Shown here piece by piece: positions 2,878 through 38,620 of a stretch of DNA of 41,305 bases; the first letter of the stretch is position 1, and the number at the start of each line of letters is the position of its first letter. The translations under genes were made by a program, and so were the position numbers. This DNA comes from Thermoflexus hugenholtzii JAD2 (lineage in GTDB: Bacteria > Chloroflexota > UBA11872 > UBA12225): contig CAMBEO010000015.1 in NCBI GenBank assembly GCA_945865725.1, positions 1 to 41,305 on the forward strand, read 5' to 3'. Below the pieces are notes generated by a model. It saw only the letters and a program-made list of their open reading frames with translations. It was not told the origin of the DNA and did not search any database.

Positions 2878-5445
2878 ATGGAGACGGCAGGCGGGCGCGG
2901 CCACGGTGGTGCGGGCATGGTCGGTGGCGCCGCGGATGGAGGCCCGGGACGGCGGCGCATCGCGTGCGTCTGGTGGCCCCGCCTGGGCCTGCGGGTGGTG
3001 GCGCGGCGCGACCCCCTCGTCCGCGGGCGCGGCGCGGGACGCCCGGGCGCGACCGGCACCGGAGACACGCCGCCCGCCGTCGCCCTCTTCCGATCCGGCA
3101 CGCGGTGGCAGGAACTCCTGCAGTGCAGTGCCGACCTCGAGGCCGAGGGGATCGTCCCCGGCATGCCCCTGAAGGAGGCGCAGGCGCGCCATCCCGACGC
3201 GCGCTACCTGCCGTGCGACGACGACGCCCTCGCGGCCATCGGCGCGGCTTTCGCCACCGTCGTCGTCGCCCTTGCGCCATATAGCCCGTCGATCGAACCG
3301 GCCCTCGGCGTCGTGCCCGGCCTCTCCGGGCGTGCCGACGAGGGCGCCCCGGCCGGTGTCACCATCGATCCGGCGCGTGCCGTCGCCTTCCTGGACGTCG
3401 CCGGCCTCGAGGCGCGCCACGGGCCGGAGGCCGACCTCGCCGCGCACCTGGCATCGACGGCCGTCACCGCCGCGATGGCCGCGACCGCCCCCGCGGGGCC
3501 GGACGACCCGTGGGCAGGTGGCCCGCCGGTGGTGGCGGTCGGCATCGCGGGCGGGAAGTTCGCCGCGTGGGTCGCCGCCGCGACCGCCCTCGCCGCCGCC
3601 GGTCGGGCGGGCGCGACCGGTCGACCGGCGGCGGCGCCGCGACGCTTGCGGTGGCGCGAGATTGCCGGCCCGACCGCCCTCGACCCCGACCTGTCCACGC
3701 CCGCGCGCGGTGCGGTCGCCGCGCGTGCCCCCGGCCGGCTAGTGCCACTCCCCTTGCCGACGGCACTCCCGGCGGCGGTCGATACCGCGCGACTGCCGGC
3801 GCCGCTCCTCGTCGTGCCGTCGGGTGGCGTCGCGGCCTTCCTCGACCCCCTGCCGCTTGCCACCCTCCCCCTCGCCCTCGGCGTGCGCCGCGCCCTCGAA
3901 CGCCTCGGCATCCGCACCCTCGGGCGCTTCGCCGCCCTGCCCGCCAACGCCGTCATCGCCCGCTACGGCTCGGCGGCGCGCCACGCCCATCGCCTCGCCG
4001 GCGGTCACGACGACGAGCCGTTGCGCCCGCCCGCGCCGCCCCTCGCCGCGCGCGTCACCGTCGCCTTCGAGTGGGAGGAGACCGGTCTCGACCGCCTCAC
4101 CTTCATCCTGCGGTCACTGGCCGGGCAACTCGTCGCGCGCCTGCACGCCCTGGGGCGCCCCGATGGCGCCGATGACGCCGCCGACCGGGACCCTGAGGCC
4201 GCGACCGGCCCCGCCTTCGACCTGACGGCGCCCGACCCGCTTCCTCCCGACGACCCGTCGGCCGAGGTCGATGACCCCGACCTTGTCGCCATCGATCGAG
4301 ATCATCTTGACGGTGCCGTCACGCCCGACCGGCGCGCATGGCGGGATGATCTTGACGAGTCCGTTGATCTTGACGACGCGGCGCGGTGGGCGCGCGGCGC
4401 GATGGTGCGTCGCCTCGCCGTCTCCCGGGCCAATGACGCCCGGCGCGCCCCGGATGGCGCCCGGCCCGCGGCATCGCCCCGCCCGCGCCGCGCCGCTCCG
4501 GCCGAGGCGCCCGCGCCGTACGCCGTCGAGGCGTTGCGTGTCACCTGGTTGCTTGCCCCGCGCCGCGGCAACGACGCCCCCGAACGGCGCGAGGCCCTGT
4601 TGCGCCTTGCCGAACCGGCCGCCACCGGCCACGCCTTCGCCACCCACTTGCGGTGGCATGTCGAGGGCCTCGACCGCCTGCTTGCCGATACCCCTGACGC
4701 CACCGGGGCCGACGAGGTGGCCGTCCCCGGTGACCTGACCTACGCGCCGATGGCCGACCGGCGCCGGGGCGTCGTGGGCATCGAGGTCGAGGCCGCCGGC
4801 ATCGGCGCGCCGGTCGCCAACCAGATGGCGTTGCACCTCGTCGCCGGCCCGCGCCCGGCGTGGGCCCGCGCCGCGCGTGACCCGGAACGGCAGGCGCGCG
4901 CCGCCCGCCTCGCCGTCGCCCGCCTGCAGGCCCGGTGGGGCGAGGGTGCCGTCGGCGGCCTGCCGGACCCTGACCCGGCCGCGCGCCTCCCCGAACATGC
5001 CCGCGCGTGGGGGCCGCCGGTCGTCGCCCTGCCCGGCCTTGCCCCGGCGACCGGTCGCGCCACGCCGGCCGCGCCCCCCGCCGCCACGCGCCACGGCCTC
5101 GAGGCCGCCGCCCCCTGCTGGTTGGTTGATCCGCCCCGCCCGGTCACCTTGCGACGCCTTGCCTCGAAGCGCCTCTTCCTTGAGATCCCGGACATCCCGG
5201 ATGCCGACCCCGGCAGGCCCCTCTCAGGCATGGCGCGTGGCCCCGTCCCTGTCGGCCGCGTCACCGGCCCGTGGCATCTCGTCGACCCCACGACCCTCGT
5301 CGATGCCGAGCCGCCGCGGCGCGACTACTTCCAGGTCGAGACCGGCGACCACCGCGTCCTCCTCCTCTACCGGGACCGCGCCGCGGCGCCGGGGGTGCCC
5401 GCACCTGCGGACCCGCCATGGTTCCTGCACGGCATCTACGACTGA
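2878..5445 (+). CDS. imuB: ImuB-like inactive Y-family polymerase, mutasome subunit
   Basis: ImuB is the polymerase-like scaffold that brings DnaE2 to lesions during SOS mutagenesis. The start reads IACVWWPRLGLRVVARRDP (about residues 29-47), where active Y-family enzymes have a catalytic Asp. The second catalytic site reads LDVAGLEARHG (172-182) instead of SIDE. Both acidic motifs are therefore lost, as is usual for ImuB. A fingers/little-finger-like region extends to about 420. Then comes an unusual Asp- and Arg-rich low-complexity stretch (about 424-547), making the protein (855 residues) far longer than the common 450-550. The last 40 residues (RDYFQVET to FLHGIYD) match the DUF6504 tail common in this family. 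No clear QxxLF clamp-binding box was found. Its start is probably leaderless, behind an SOS box, and it precedes dnaE2 by 35 nt. Confidence 0.85.
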   Translation: METAGGRGHGGAGMVGGAADGGPGRRRIACVWWPRLGLRVVARRDPLVRGRGAGRPGATGTGDTPPAVALFRSGTRWQELLQCSADLEAEGIVPGMPLKEAQARHPDARYLPCDDDALAAIGAAFATVVVALAPYSPSIEPALGVVPGLSGRADEGAPAGVTIDPARAVAFLDVAGLEARHGPEADLAAHLASTAVTAAMAATAPAGPDDPWAGGPPVVAVGIAGGKFAAWVAAATALAAAGRAGATGRPAAAPRRLRWREIAGPTALDPDLSTPARGAVAARAPGRLVPLPLPTALPAAVDTARLPAPLLVVPSGGVAAFLDPLPLATLPLALGVRRALERLGIRTLGRFAALPANAVIARYGSAARHAHRLAGGHDDEPLRPPAPPLAARVTVAFEWEETGLDRLTFILRSLAGQLVARLHALGRPDGADDAADRDPEAATGPAFDLTAPDPLPPDDPSAEVDDPDLVAIDRDHLDGAVTPDRRAWRDDLDESVDLDDAARWARGAMVRRLAVSRANDARRAPDGARPAASPRPRRAAPAEAPAPYAVEALRVTWLLAPRRGNDAPERREALLRLAEPAATGHAFATHLRWHVEGLDRLLADTPDATGADEVAVPGDLTYAPMADRRRGVVGIEVEAAGIGAPVANQMALHLVAGPRPAWARAARDPERQARAARLAVARLQARWGEGAVGGLPDPDPAARLPEHARAWGPPVVALPGLAPATGRATPAAPPAATRHGLEAAAPCWLVDPPRPVTLRRLASKRLFLEIPDIPDADPGRPLSGMARGPVPVGRVTGPWHLVDPTTLVDAEPPRRDYFQVETGDHRVLLLYRDRAAAPGVPAPADPPWFLHGIYD

Positions 5446-5480: not shown

Positions 5481-8400
5481 ATGGAGTACGCCGAACTTCA
5501 CGCCCACACCAACTTCTCGTTCCTCGACGGGGCAAGCGACCCGGAGGCGATGGCCGAGACGGCCGCGCGCCTGGGGTTGCGCGCCCTCGCCATCACTGAC
5601 CACGACAGTCTCTCGGGGATCGTGCGCTTCGGCGCCGCCGCGCAGGCGCACGGCATCCACCCGATCACCGGCATCGAGTTGACGGTGGAACCGCCCGGCA
5701 CGCCCGCGCCCGGCCTGCCCGGCTTCGACCGCGTGCCGCCCGGCGTGGACGGTGGTGACCCCATGCCGGAGGTCGCCCACCTCACCCTGCTTGCCGAGGA
5801 CCTTGGCGGCTACCGCAACCTGTGCGCCCTCCTCACCGAGGCGTACCGCCACGGCGGCCTCGACGCGCCGCGCGTGCCGTGGGAGGTCCTCGCGCGCCAC
5901 GCCGGCGGCCTCGTCGCCCTCTCGGGGTGCGCCGACGGCGAGGTCCCGCGCGCCCTCGCCCGCGGTGGCCCGGAGGCGGCCTTCCGCGTCGCCGCGCGCT
6001 ACCGCGAGGCCTTCGGCCGCGACCGCTTCGCCATCGAGTTGCACCGCCATGGCCTGCCCGCCGACGGTCCGCGCAATGCCGGCCTGCAGGCGGTCGCTGC
6101 GCGCCTCGACCTCGCCTGCGTCGCCACCCAGGACGCGCACTACCACGACGCCACGCGGGCGATGTTGCACCACGTCGTGACCTGCATTCGCCACGGGACG
6201 ACCCTTGCCGAGGCGGGGGCGCGCCTGCGCCCGAACGACGAGTACCGCCTGAAATCGGGAGCCGAAATGGCGCGCCGCTTCCGGGACGAGTGCGCCCGCG
6301 CCGGGTCACCCGCGCGCGACCCCCTGCGCGCCACCCTCGCCATCGCCGAACGGTGCGCCTTCACCCTCCACGACCTGCGCTACGAGTTCCCCCGCCCGCG
6401 CCTGCCCCACGGCGAGTCGGCCCTCAGCTTCCTCACCCGCCTCGTTGAGGCAGGCAAGACCGTCTTCTATCCCGATGCCTCCGACGAGGTCGGCGCGCGC
6501 CTCGCGCACGAGCTGGACATCGTCGACCAACTCGGCCTCGCGGGCTACCTCCTCGTCTTCAAGGAGATCGTCGACTGGAGCCAGTCGCAGGGGATCCTCG
6601 TGAGCATGCGCGGGTCGGCCCCCGCCTCGGCGATGTTGCACTGCATGGGGTTGTGCCCCATCGATCCCCTCGAGCACGGCCTGCTATTCGAGCGCTTCTG
6701 TTCGCCCGAGCGGCGCGAGTACCCCGACATCGACCTCGACTTCCCGCACGAGCGGCGCGAGGAGGTGATCCAGCACATTTACGAGAAGTACGGGCGCACG
6801 CACGCCGCGATGGTCTGCGAGGTGATCAGCTACCGGTCGCGCAGCGCCGTGCGCGACGTGGCGAAGGTGCTTGGCCTGCCGGCGGCGCGCGCGCAACGCC
6901 TGGCCGACCTCCTCGACTCCCGCGACGCCGACCCCCTGGCGCGCCTCGAGGCCGAGGGGATCCGCGGGCGCCTCGCCGACCTCCTCGTCGACCTGACGCG
7001 CCAGCTCGCGGATAGCCCGCGCCACCTCTCGATTCATGTCGGCGGCATGGTCATCTCGTCCGAGCCCCTCAACCACGTCACCCCCGTCCTGCCCGCCCGC
7101 ATGCCCGCGCGCACCGTCCTGCCGTGGGACAAGGACGACCTGACGATCCTTGCCGAGACCTTCGACGTCCAGCTGATCAAGATGGACCTGCTGTCGCTGG
7201 GGATGCTGTCGGCCATCGGGCGGTGCTTCGACCACGTGGCCGACCTGACGGGCGAGCGCCTGGACCTGCACGGCTTCCGCTACGACCCCGGCGTCTACGA
7301 CCAGTTGTGCGCCGCCGACACGATCGGCCTCTTTCAGGTGGAGTCGCGCGCGCAGCAGTCGTTCCTGCCGCGCCTGCGCCCGCGCAACCTGGCCGACACC
7401 GCCATCTCGGTGGGGGCGATCCGTCCCGGGCCGGGGGCGGCGCGCGCGGGCGAGCACATCGTGCGCCGCCGCCAGGGGCGCGAACCCATCACCTACCCGG
7501 CGCGCGAGCTGATCCCTGCCCTGCGCGAGACCTACGGCGTCCTCCTCTGGCAGGAGCAGTGCATCCAGGTGGCGGTGATCGCCGCCGGCTACACGCCCGG
7601 CGAGGCCGACCAGTTGCGCCGCGCGATGAGCCACAAGCGGTCGGAGGAGCGGATGCACGAGGTCTGCGCCGAGATGGTCGACCGCATGACCGCGCGCGGC
7701 TACGACGCAAGCACGGCCGAGGCGGTGCGCGACATGGTCGTCGGCTTCGCCGGCTACGGCTTCCCGCGGGCGCACGCCTACCCCTTCGCGCACCTCGCCC
7801 TGATCTCGGCGACGCTGCGCCTGCGCTACCCCGAGGCCTACTACGCCGCCCTGTTGAACTGCCAGCCGATGGGCTTCTACGCCCCCCACACCCTGTTGTG
7901 GGACGCCCACCGGCACGGCGTGCGCGTGTTGCCGGTGCACGTCAACTGCAGCGCGTGGGAGTCGACGCTGGAACCCCTGCCTCCTCCCGAGGCACCTGCC
8001 CCCCTCGATTCCTCTCCCGCGAAGCGGGGTGGTGGTGGTGCTTCCCTCTCCCGCCGCAGCGGGGGAGGGACTGAGGGTGGGGGTTGTCTCCCGCGAAGCG
8101 GCGTGGAGACGCTGCCTACTCCCCTCTCCCGCGAAGCGGGGGAGGGGCAGGGGGTGGGGGTGCGTCCCGCCCCGGCCGTCGCCATCCGCCTCGGGATGTG
8201 CGAGGTGCACGGCCTCGGCCCGGCGGCGCGCGAGATCTTCGAGGGCGCCCGTGCCGCCGGACCCTTCCGGTCGCTGGCCGACCTGGTGGTGCGCACCGGG
8301 TTCGACCGCGACCGCCTCGAGAGCCTCGCCGAGGTTGGCGCCCTCCTCGGCCTGCCCGCCGGCGCCGCCACCGGGCGTGCCGGACCGGGGCGCGACCGGC

Positions 8401-29788: not shown

Positions 29789-30583
29789 ATGTCTGGCTAC
29801 ACGTTCGGTGGTCGCGTCGCGCTTGTCACCGGGGGCGGGTCCGGTATCGGGCGGGCGACCGCGATCCGCATCGCGAAGGGCGGGGGCCTCGTCGCGGTCG
29901 TCGACCGGAACCTCGAGGGCGCTCGTGGCACCGTCGACCTGATCGACCTTGCCGGCGGTCGCGGCATCGCGATCGAGGCCGATGCGACCGACGAGGCGTC
30001 GGTGACCGGCGCAGTTGCGTTGGCGACGGCCACGTATGGCGCGCCGCCGGTCATCCTCGTCGCCAACGCCTCCTCGGGTGGCGGTGACGACCCATTGTCG
30101 ACCTCCGTCGAGGTGTGGGACCGGGTGATGGTCGGTGCCCTGCGCAGCCAGTTCCTCGGTGCGCGCGCCGTCCTCCCCGGGATGATCGCCGCCGGGCACG
30201 GCGCGATCGTCTGCGTCTCGACGGTCAACGGCCTGATGGGGATCGGCGACGATGCCTACAGCGCCGCGAAGGCCGGGGTCATCAACTTCGCGAAGAACCT
30301 GGCGGTCCGGTACGGGCAACATGGGATCCGGGCCAACGTGGTCTGCCCCGGCACGATCCAGACCCCCGCATGGAACCGCCGCCTCGAACGCACGCCAGAC
30401 ATCTTCGACCGCCTGAAGGCGTGGTACCCGGTCGGCCGCGTCGGGCAACCAGAGGACGTCGCGGCGGCGATCTGCTTCCTGGCCTCCGACGATGCGTCAT
30501 TCATCTCCGGGGCGGTCCTGCCGGTCGACGGTGGCCTGACCGCCGGGATGTGGCGGATGGGTCGCGACCTGCAGGGGGACTAG
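29789..30583 (+). CDS. short-chain dehydrogenase/reductase (SDR)
   Basis: A 264-residue classical SDR. The cofactor motif is TGGGSGIG (14-21), the acidic residue at the end of beta-2 (VVDRN) suggests NAD(H), and the active site has Ser in VSTVNG and YSAAK (Tyr157, Lys161). VVCPGTIQTPAW and GAVLPVDGGLT complete the fold. The Shine-Dalgarno-like GGGAGGG lies 4-5 nt before the ATG. It is divergent from the DUF6807 gene across a 221-nt gap. The last coding bases and stop are part of a 2 x 26-nt tandem duplication. The substrate is probably a sugar or polyol, by context only. Confidence 0.9.
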   Translation: MSGYTFGGRVALVTGGGSGIGRATAIRIAKGGGLVAVVDRNLEGARGTVDLIDLAGGRGIAIEADATDEASVTGAVALATATYGAPPVILVANASSGGGDDPLSTSVEVWDRVMVGALRSQFLGARAVLPGMIAAGHGAIVCVSTVNGLMGIGDDAYSAAKAGVINFAKNLAVRYGQHGIRANVVCPGTIQTPAWNRRLERTPDIFDRLKAWYPVGRVGQPEDVAAAICFLASDDASFISGAVLPVDGGLTAGMWRMGRDLQGD

Positions 30584-30626
30584 GGCGTCCACGCCTGCAC
30601 GGGGACTAGGGCGTCCACGCCTGCAC
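30575..30626. repeat. tandem duplication of 26 nt at the SDR 3' end
   Basis: Two perfect, directly adjacent 26-nt copies (30575-30600 and 30601-30626) contain GGGGACTAGGGCGTCC and the TAG stop. The first copy holds the real stop codon of the SDR gene; the second lies in the intergenic gap before the convergent iolG-like gene. Confidence 0.9.
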
Positions 30627-30641
30627 GGGAGCGTCCGGGGG

Positions 30642-33468: not shown

Positions 33469-33500
33469 CCGCGAGCGCCCGGACAGGGGCGCGACCTGCT

Positions 33501-33526
33501 CCCCTCTCCCGCGCGGCGGGGGAGGG
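33501..33526. repeat. palindromic repeat unit (CCCCTCTCCCGC family)
   Basis: CCCCTCTCCCGC-gc-GCGGGGGAGGGG, an almost perfect inverted repeat, lies 32 nt after the lipoprotein stop, with a G-rich tail to 33534. It is close to the best unit inside dnaE2 (8121-8147). It may also serve as the transcript end here. Confidence 0.75.
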
Positions 33527-33527
33527 G

Positions 33528-33555
33528 TTGGGGGAGCCGCCGGCCCGGTTACGAT
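33528..33555 (+). promoter_or_regulatory. promoter of the aldo/keto reductase gene
   Basis: TTGGGG (33528-33533), a 16-nt spacer and TACGAT (33550-33555). The -35 half overlaps the G-rich tail of the palindromic repeat, so the repeat may contribute the promoter. Confidence 0.4.
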
Positions 33556-38491: not shown

Positions 38492-38572
38492 TCGTTTCGC
38501 CTGGCGTGGCATTCCGCCTCACCGGCCCGCCCCTGCACTGTCCCCGATCTGGACACGGCACCGAACTCCCCT

Positions 38573-38604
38573 CTCCCGCTCGCGTGGGAGTTTTCAGCAG
38601 GGGG
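38573..38604. repeat. dispersed palindromic repeat, intergenic copy
   Basis: Identical over 32 nt to 34779-34810 and preceded by CTCCC, giving the family start CTCCCCTCTCCCGC. The hairpin followed by TTTT could also terminate transcription of the YciB-like gene. The rest of the 38490-38735 gap holds G-runs and the two palindromes listed next. Confidence 0.8.
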
Positions 38605-38620
38605 TGGGGACTGGGACCGT

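Follow-up and report, generated by a model that had tools for sequence, protein, structure and literature searches.

How does an error-prone DNA polymerase come to carry a run of hairpin repeats inside its coding sequence, and why at that particular place? The question is raised by dnaE2 of Thermoflexus hugenholtzii JAD2, which lies in the window analysed here, a stretch of 41,305 nucleotides (contig C15) from a genome of 2.30 Mb in 106 contigs, 85% complete, called G000 below. The dnaE2 ORF was taken from the ATG preceding EYAELH, at 5481, the ORF listing having a longer start at 5271; it continues to 8936 without a stop across the repeat stretch. Its product passed the curated cut-off of NCBIfam model NF004225, error-prone DNA polymerase (1023.9 bits, for a cut-off of 939). 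Residues D416, D418 and D569, which we take to be the catalytic acidic residues of DnaE2 (PDID motif), were unchanged throughout 38 aligned sequences. The dnaE2 gene is typically found beside an imuB-like gene; here the ORF at 2878-5445, upstream of dnaE2, gave a weak match to DNA polymerase IV models (30.7 bits, below the cut-off). Features of the window are reported in Table 1.

Table 1. Position, strand and mode of detection of the features located in the window.
Feature	Position	Strand	Evidence or remark
dnaE2, C-family error-prone DNA polymerase (PHP, polymerase, finger, HhH, OB), 1151 aa	5481..8936	+	ORF, profile match, structure model
135-nt (45-codon) block missing from the dnaE2 of the congener G001	7977..8111	+	reading of the sequence against the G001 alignment
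Unit 1, truncated type A hairpin CTCTCCCGCGAAGCGGGG	8012..8029	+	sequence comparison
Unit 2, complete type B, 100% identical to consensus, hairpin and G-rich tail, encodes ASLSRRSGGGTEGGG	8038..8083	+	
Four-run G pattern, tail of unit 2	8061..8083	+	pattern search
Unit 3, degenerate type A hairpin GTCTCCCGCGAAGCGGCGTGGAGAC	8085..8109	+	83% copy at 8087-8115; RNA fold
Unit 4, complete type A (exact), encodes PLSREAGEGQGVG	8119..8160	+	sole unit common to congener dnaE2, 1 mismatch in 42
Four-run G pattern, tail of unit 4	8138..8160	+	pattern search
Further type A unit, between predicted genes	33499..33534	+	
Diverged type A unit, between predicted genes	38566..38609	+	

The stretch from 8011 to 8163 is in frame within dnaE2 and is made of four hairpin units, which fall between DnaE2 residues 833 and 897. 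They are of two related kinds, A and B, with the consensus sequences CTCCCCTCTCCCGCGAAGCGGGGGAGGGGCAGGGGGTGGGGG and GTGCTTCCCTCTCCCGCCGCAGCGGGGGAGGGACTGAGGGTGGGGG respectively, and they lie side by side, units adjoining earlier ones. An initial annotation of this DNA had described hairpin repeats inserted in frame in dnaE2, and this description is borne out by a reading frame open throughout, by the four units located and by the profile of an error-prone polymerase. Unit A is free of stops in all six frames, and unit B in five of the six. The 135-nt block has a direct repeat of 5 nt, CTGCC, at its two borders (7977-7981 and 8112-8116). The RNA of 8005-8165 was predicted to fold at −96.3 kcal/mol (z −3.17), a value equalled by none of 200 shuffles. 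A search of Rfam with 7800-8400 gave no match above any gathering score, and a Pfam search with the insert itself (8008-8169) gave no match. The two four-run G patterns noticed earlier were recovered at exactly the same positions. The window as a whole has 12 such patterns on its two strands, compared to 9.8 after shuffling. G4 patterns as such therefore do not exceed chance in this GC-rich window, and those of the dnaE2 insert are there because the repeat has a G-rich tail. The initial annotation had suggested that mRNA folding or G-quadruplexes could slow translation or destabilise this site, and such effects are possible.

To what part of the protein do these codons correspond? An AlphaFold model of DnaE2, computed from the 38 aligned DnaE2 sequences, had a mean pLDDT of 85.9 and a pTM of 0.85, and its fold agreed with the solved bacterial DnaE polymerases 7pu7, 4iqj, 3e0d and 2hnh. 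It places a strand at residues 829-832, an unstructured segment at 838-895 (pLDDT below 50) and another strand at 900-903; given their order, the two strands would form one beta-hairpin. In the model, the insert forms a long disordered turn connecting the two short strands where the HhH region begins, and it breaks the Pfam HHH_6 match, which spans 144 residues (813-956) for 81 profile positions. The low-confidence segment comprises 58 residues, which agrees with the previous estimate of about 50 added residues, and the intact domains on both sides sustain the view that the repeats entered a tolerant site.

The units are not confined to dnaE2. With the insert as query, at least 64 matches were obtained in its own genome (40 of 339 candidates scored), and a pattern search gave 57 forward matches against 5 with the pattern read backwards, far more than chance would give. 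BLAST on a sample of 841,305 bases, consisting of 40 stretches of 20 kb and the window, returned 189 units against 12 in the same DNA reversed; units of at least 40 nt represented 88 of the 189 real ones and 7 of the 12 in the reversed control. By extrapolation from this sample, the whole genome would hold roughly 500 units. Outside predicted genes were found 160 of the 189 units, though 80% of the sample is predicted coding, which indicates that copies inside genes are strongly selected against or that genes are strongly avoided. For this count, genes were predicted with a simple coding-potential gene finder. The dnaE2 insert units are thereby confirmed as members of a REP-like family of palindromes dispersed through this Chloroflexota genome.

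The remaining 29 units sit in 19 predicted genes; weak matches or gene ends (L162, L164:13826, L166, L189 and L196) were not counted as clear insertions. In-frame repeat units were found in mutL (L172:8821-10779, + strand), where they occupy the interdomain linker, in queA (L193:14296-15711, − strand) and in the C-terminal part of dnaE1 (L044:1-1800, + strand). Five or more antisense B units, read in a single open frame, join ispD and ispF (L164:14707-16197, − strand); this joint frame could be a gene fusion made by the repeats, or an intergenic array that is read through. The names of these four loci come from family profile matches. Translated unit B was found as VLPSPAAAGEG, as ASLSRRSGGG and, antisense, as LSPSPAAAGEG, meaning that at least three frames are used. 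Two other observations were made on the repeats of this genome. A variant with a CGCGTACGCGGATAACGATGG-like stretch between the hairpin and the G-rich tail occurs in several copies (L056, L060 and L061 of G000), and no tandem array in the window scores higher than a 26-nt repeat of 2.4 copies at 30568-30629 (score 117).

The history of the array was traced in relatives. The dnaE2 genes of G000 and of its congener G001 share 86.8% DNA identity, and dN/dS between them is 0.107 for the whole gene, 0.091 before the insert and 0.123 after it; this value of 0.107 shows that the insert-bearing dnaE2 is under purifying selection. In the congener, whose contig measures 3.4 kb and whose bin is 5% contaminated, the corresponding codons of the gene hold a single unit, of kind A. 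No unit was present in dnaE2 of G002, G003, G004, G005, G006 and G007, that is all six family mates with a readable loop, and G008 gave a weak dnaE2 match only. The expectation that close relatives would lack the insert was therefore mostly borne out: it held for these six family mates, while the congener has a one-unit version. Over the 42 nt of unit A, 41 are identical in the two congeners, fewer differences than the gene average predicts; this could reflect either common descent with gene conversion or a separate insertion into the same position. A strict pattern search had suggested that the dnaE2 unit was the sole copy in G001, an idea which was dropped when a DNA search with the repeat gave 43 matches in that genome. 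Four units in G000 and one in G001 would fit with instability over evolutionary time. A search for Y1_Tnp/RAYT (PF01797) gave 0 matches in G000, at 85% completeness, and 2 above the cut-off in G001; with no Y1_Tnp in G000, we infer the movement of the element. In one of the Chloroflexota family mates, G005, dnaE2 (L082) was seen to carry a self-complementary insert elsewhere, in a PHP-domain loop near query residue 70 (z −5.3).

Is the same loop lengthened in other bacteria? Among 80 DnaE2 loci collected by similarity to the query, the loop was readable in 78, L115 and L150 ending before it. Besides the congener (L077), palindromic loop inserts were found in a Sphingomonas (L094) and in two Novosphingobium (L123 and L131). 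Searched against their own genomes, the L094 insert gave 19 matches and the L123 insert 48; against the L131 genome, the L123 insert found 3 matches only, mainly the dnaE2 copy itself. For L094, the z value of the fold was −1.7 with the arms trimmed by the alignment and −7.0 with whole arms. Two other loops were ruled out as palindromes, that of L133 (z 1.0) and the long loop of a Pararobbsia (L154, z 1.5), an exception among long loops. Palindromic inserts also occur in the PHP domain, around query positions 70 (L082), 97 (L094) and 155 (L123), so more than one loop of DnaE2 is favoured; in this set, the finger-HhH loop was hit more often than the PHP-domain loops. The initial annotation had held that the same insert conserved in distant DnaE2 proteins would mark a genuine domain. 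That sequence was not found in distant DnaE2, some of which instead carry unrelated repeats in this position.

A survey was then made of the family to which the L123 genome belongs. In the 119 genomes searched, 110 dnaE2 loci from 106 genomes were read, of which 30 had been ranked by similarity to an insert-bearing query, and are biased for that reason, and 80 were added to lessen the bias. Genomes giving just a weak match, or in which a contig ended, were left out, as were some second copies. The loop was read by motif in 92 loci and by HMM in 16, giving 108 in frame, while L250 and L310 are split over frames. Median loop length was 9 residues in the 92 motif-read loci. Loops of at least 40 residues were found in 13 of the 108 in-frame loci, and all 13 fold at z ≤ −3.0, compared to 0 of 24 shorter loops (15-39 residues) for which z was obtained, and 1 of 21 segments of equal length taken beside 11 of the 13 loops. 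The other 95 in-frame loops are without a long insert. Separately, the dnaE2 loop of L250 (G084) was seen to hold a strong palindrome (z −9.3) together with an undetermined base (N) and a frame change, and this locus is either an assembly gap or a broken gene.

A BLAST grouping was made with 15 loops of the family (11 structured and 4 unstructured controls), L204 and the query. It joined L204, L206, L207, L205 and L208 in a chain, L226 with L252 and L211 with L229 in pairs, and left L238, L260 and L293 as singletons; L252 and the G-rich part of the query have 21 nt in common. The loop inserts of the family are not one element. The search for further copies covered these 11 structured inserts, L298 and L301 being outside it. 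Among the matches listed, 9 of the 11 had further copies in their own genome (G168, G180, G097, G158, G140, G090, G130, G153 and G078), whereas the four unstructured control loops had no second match of their own segment. The G069 insert had 2 matches in all, and for G118 there were no further matches among those listed. It should be mentioned that the dnaE2 of G168 (L344, G168:C7:413000-419500) contains two inverted copies of a palindromic repeat of ~210 nt, ~2 kb apart and flanking the polymerase core; the copies, one in the PHP loop and one in the finger loop, are 99% identical over 208 nt and in opposite orientation.

As a control, the equivalent loop of dnaE1 was read at 30 loci, from 59 genomes searched. 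It was short in all 30, with 13 residues or fewer in the 19 read by motif and an equally short loop in the 11 read by HMM. We conclude that unrelated dispersed palindromic repeats lengthen the same DnaE2 loop in other bacteria too, at least two phyla being concerned in all, this recurrence being measured only against DnaE1 and against the rest of DnaE2.

How do these repeats compare with known systems? The G000 repeat is a short imperfect palindrome of tens of nt, present in high copy number and mainly between genes, which are features by which REPs are recognised. Intragenic REPs, dnaE2 included, are already in print: the accessible text of Di Nocera 2013 (PMC3733652) describes REPs within ORFs, with DnaE2 and other repair genes among the carriers, and proposes flexible linkers or loops as neutral sites for them. 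The GTAG and CGTC REPs described there resemble the G000 repeat, being short palindromes in high copy, mostly intergenic and sometimes in ORFs. The G000 repeat differs from them in lacking a constant GTAG or CGTC end, the flanks of 31 listed copies varying when examined by eye, and for this reason it was not filed as a GTAG or CGTC REP; no RAYT was found in G000, and in the accessible text CGTC REPs are also without a dedicated RAYT. As far as that text goes, similar insertion sites are given for recB only, other genes of the class being hit at differing sites, whereas in the present case the target is one loop of DnaE2, hit repeatedly, in different phyla and by different repeat families. Rickettsia palindromic elements (Ogata 2000, 2002, as cited in the accessible part of PMC10969869) also lie in frame within genes, like the repeats predicted to be translated here in the conserved proteins of dnaE2, mutL, queA, ispD-ispF and dnaE1. 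They belong to another phylum, with a unit of ~150 nt against ~45 nt here, most G000 copies are intergenic, and no single frame or peptide is conserved here, at least three frames of unit B being used. MITEs forming in-frame fusions, as presented in the same part of PMC10969869, are likewise short, non-autonomous and able to fuse in frame with genes. They differ from the G000 repeat, for which neither the terminal inverted repeats of any known transposon nor a target duplication is established, the 5-nt direct repeat being seen at one block only.

The reading we favour, to which we assign a probability of about 0.85, is that the insert is a small REP-like array that entered dnaE2 in frame, survived in a tolerant loop and grew there, the loop being a recurrent landing or survival site. 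Palindromic repeats would insert anywhere, and insertions within genes would mostly be lost. Units with hardly any stops in any frame would leave the reading frame open, and extra residues in the beta-hairpin turn at the start of HhH would form a disordered loop without disrupting the polymerase. DnaE2 is a dispensable, inducible polymerase, and in a turn of such an enzyme insertions would remain; the array inside dnaE2 would then gain further units. The identity of the repeats, their in-frame place, the disordered loop of the model, purifying selection, multicopy status and recurrence are the observations under this reading, in which movement by insertion, survival through structural tolerance and growth within the gene are presumed. 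The array could instead be an artefact of assembly, a repeat-rich bin having been joined at a repeat. Short repeats do break short-read assemblies, and G000 is in 106 contigs, but the frame is kept on both sides, the block found only in G000 is a multiple of three, and a unit occupies these codons in G001, which is a separate assembly, so we give an artefact very little credit. Scarcely any credit at all goes to a genuine structured domain, or family-specific insertion, that would be no repeat. Part of the insert is indeed common to the congener, but it has no Pfam match, has a pLDDT below 50, exists in many copies elsewhere in the genome and is missing from all six readable family mates.

It might also be that the loop is a hotspot at the DNA level, a target preferred by the mobilising enzyme and not a survival site. 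The two 99% identical copies at two loops of one Novosphingobium-family dnaE2 would agree with this, as would the G000 units adjoining earlier ones; since several sequence-unrelated repeats occupy one site, and the preference of a single enzyme would not account for this, we regard a hotspot as improbable. Selection for modulation offers another account, the repeats being kept to tune DnaE2, either through an mRNA hairpin or G-quadruplex slowing translation or through loop length, and the loop acting as a mutation-rate setting. One loop of a mutagenic polymerase is recurrently hit and that of DnaE1 spared, the mRNA fold stands at z −3.17, mutL likewise carries units in G000, and the accessible text of Di Nocera 2013 (PMC3733652) speculates that repair genes tagged by REPs may have mutator effects. 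Against it, units are also found in queA, in ispD-ispF and at gene ends, with no evident role in mutation, 95 of the 108 in-frame loops do without a long insert, G4 patterns are not in excess, and plain tolerance accounts for the same facts; we therefore hold modulation to be unlikely. Still tentative, and in our opinion doubtful, is a broader proposal, according to which the finger-HhH beta-hairpin would be a cross-phylum safe harbour for unrelated palindromes and, in some lineages, loop length or mRNA structure would have been recruited to adjust damage-induced mutagenesis, as a heritable, expandable setting.

Literature searches on palindromes in genes, on DnaE2 repeats and with literal repeat strings, made outside most subscription papers and the supplementary per-gene coordinates of Di Nocera, retrieved no report of one DnaE2 loop recurrently hit by unrelated repeats. 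What seems to be new here, as not found in print, is that one DnaE2 loop has been recurrently lengthened by such repeats across phyla. Scattered reports of repeats in DNA repair genes are thereby turned into a specific, testable pattern at one loop of a mutagenic polymerase, the equivalent loop of the replicative DnaE1 being spared, unlike that of DnaE2. The loop is a natural site of tag insertion for the biochemistry of DnaE2, and its natural length variants can be used for testing effects on mutagenesis. The loop would also offer a clean case of non-coding repeat DNA turned into protein.
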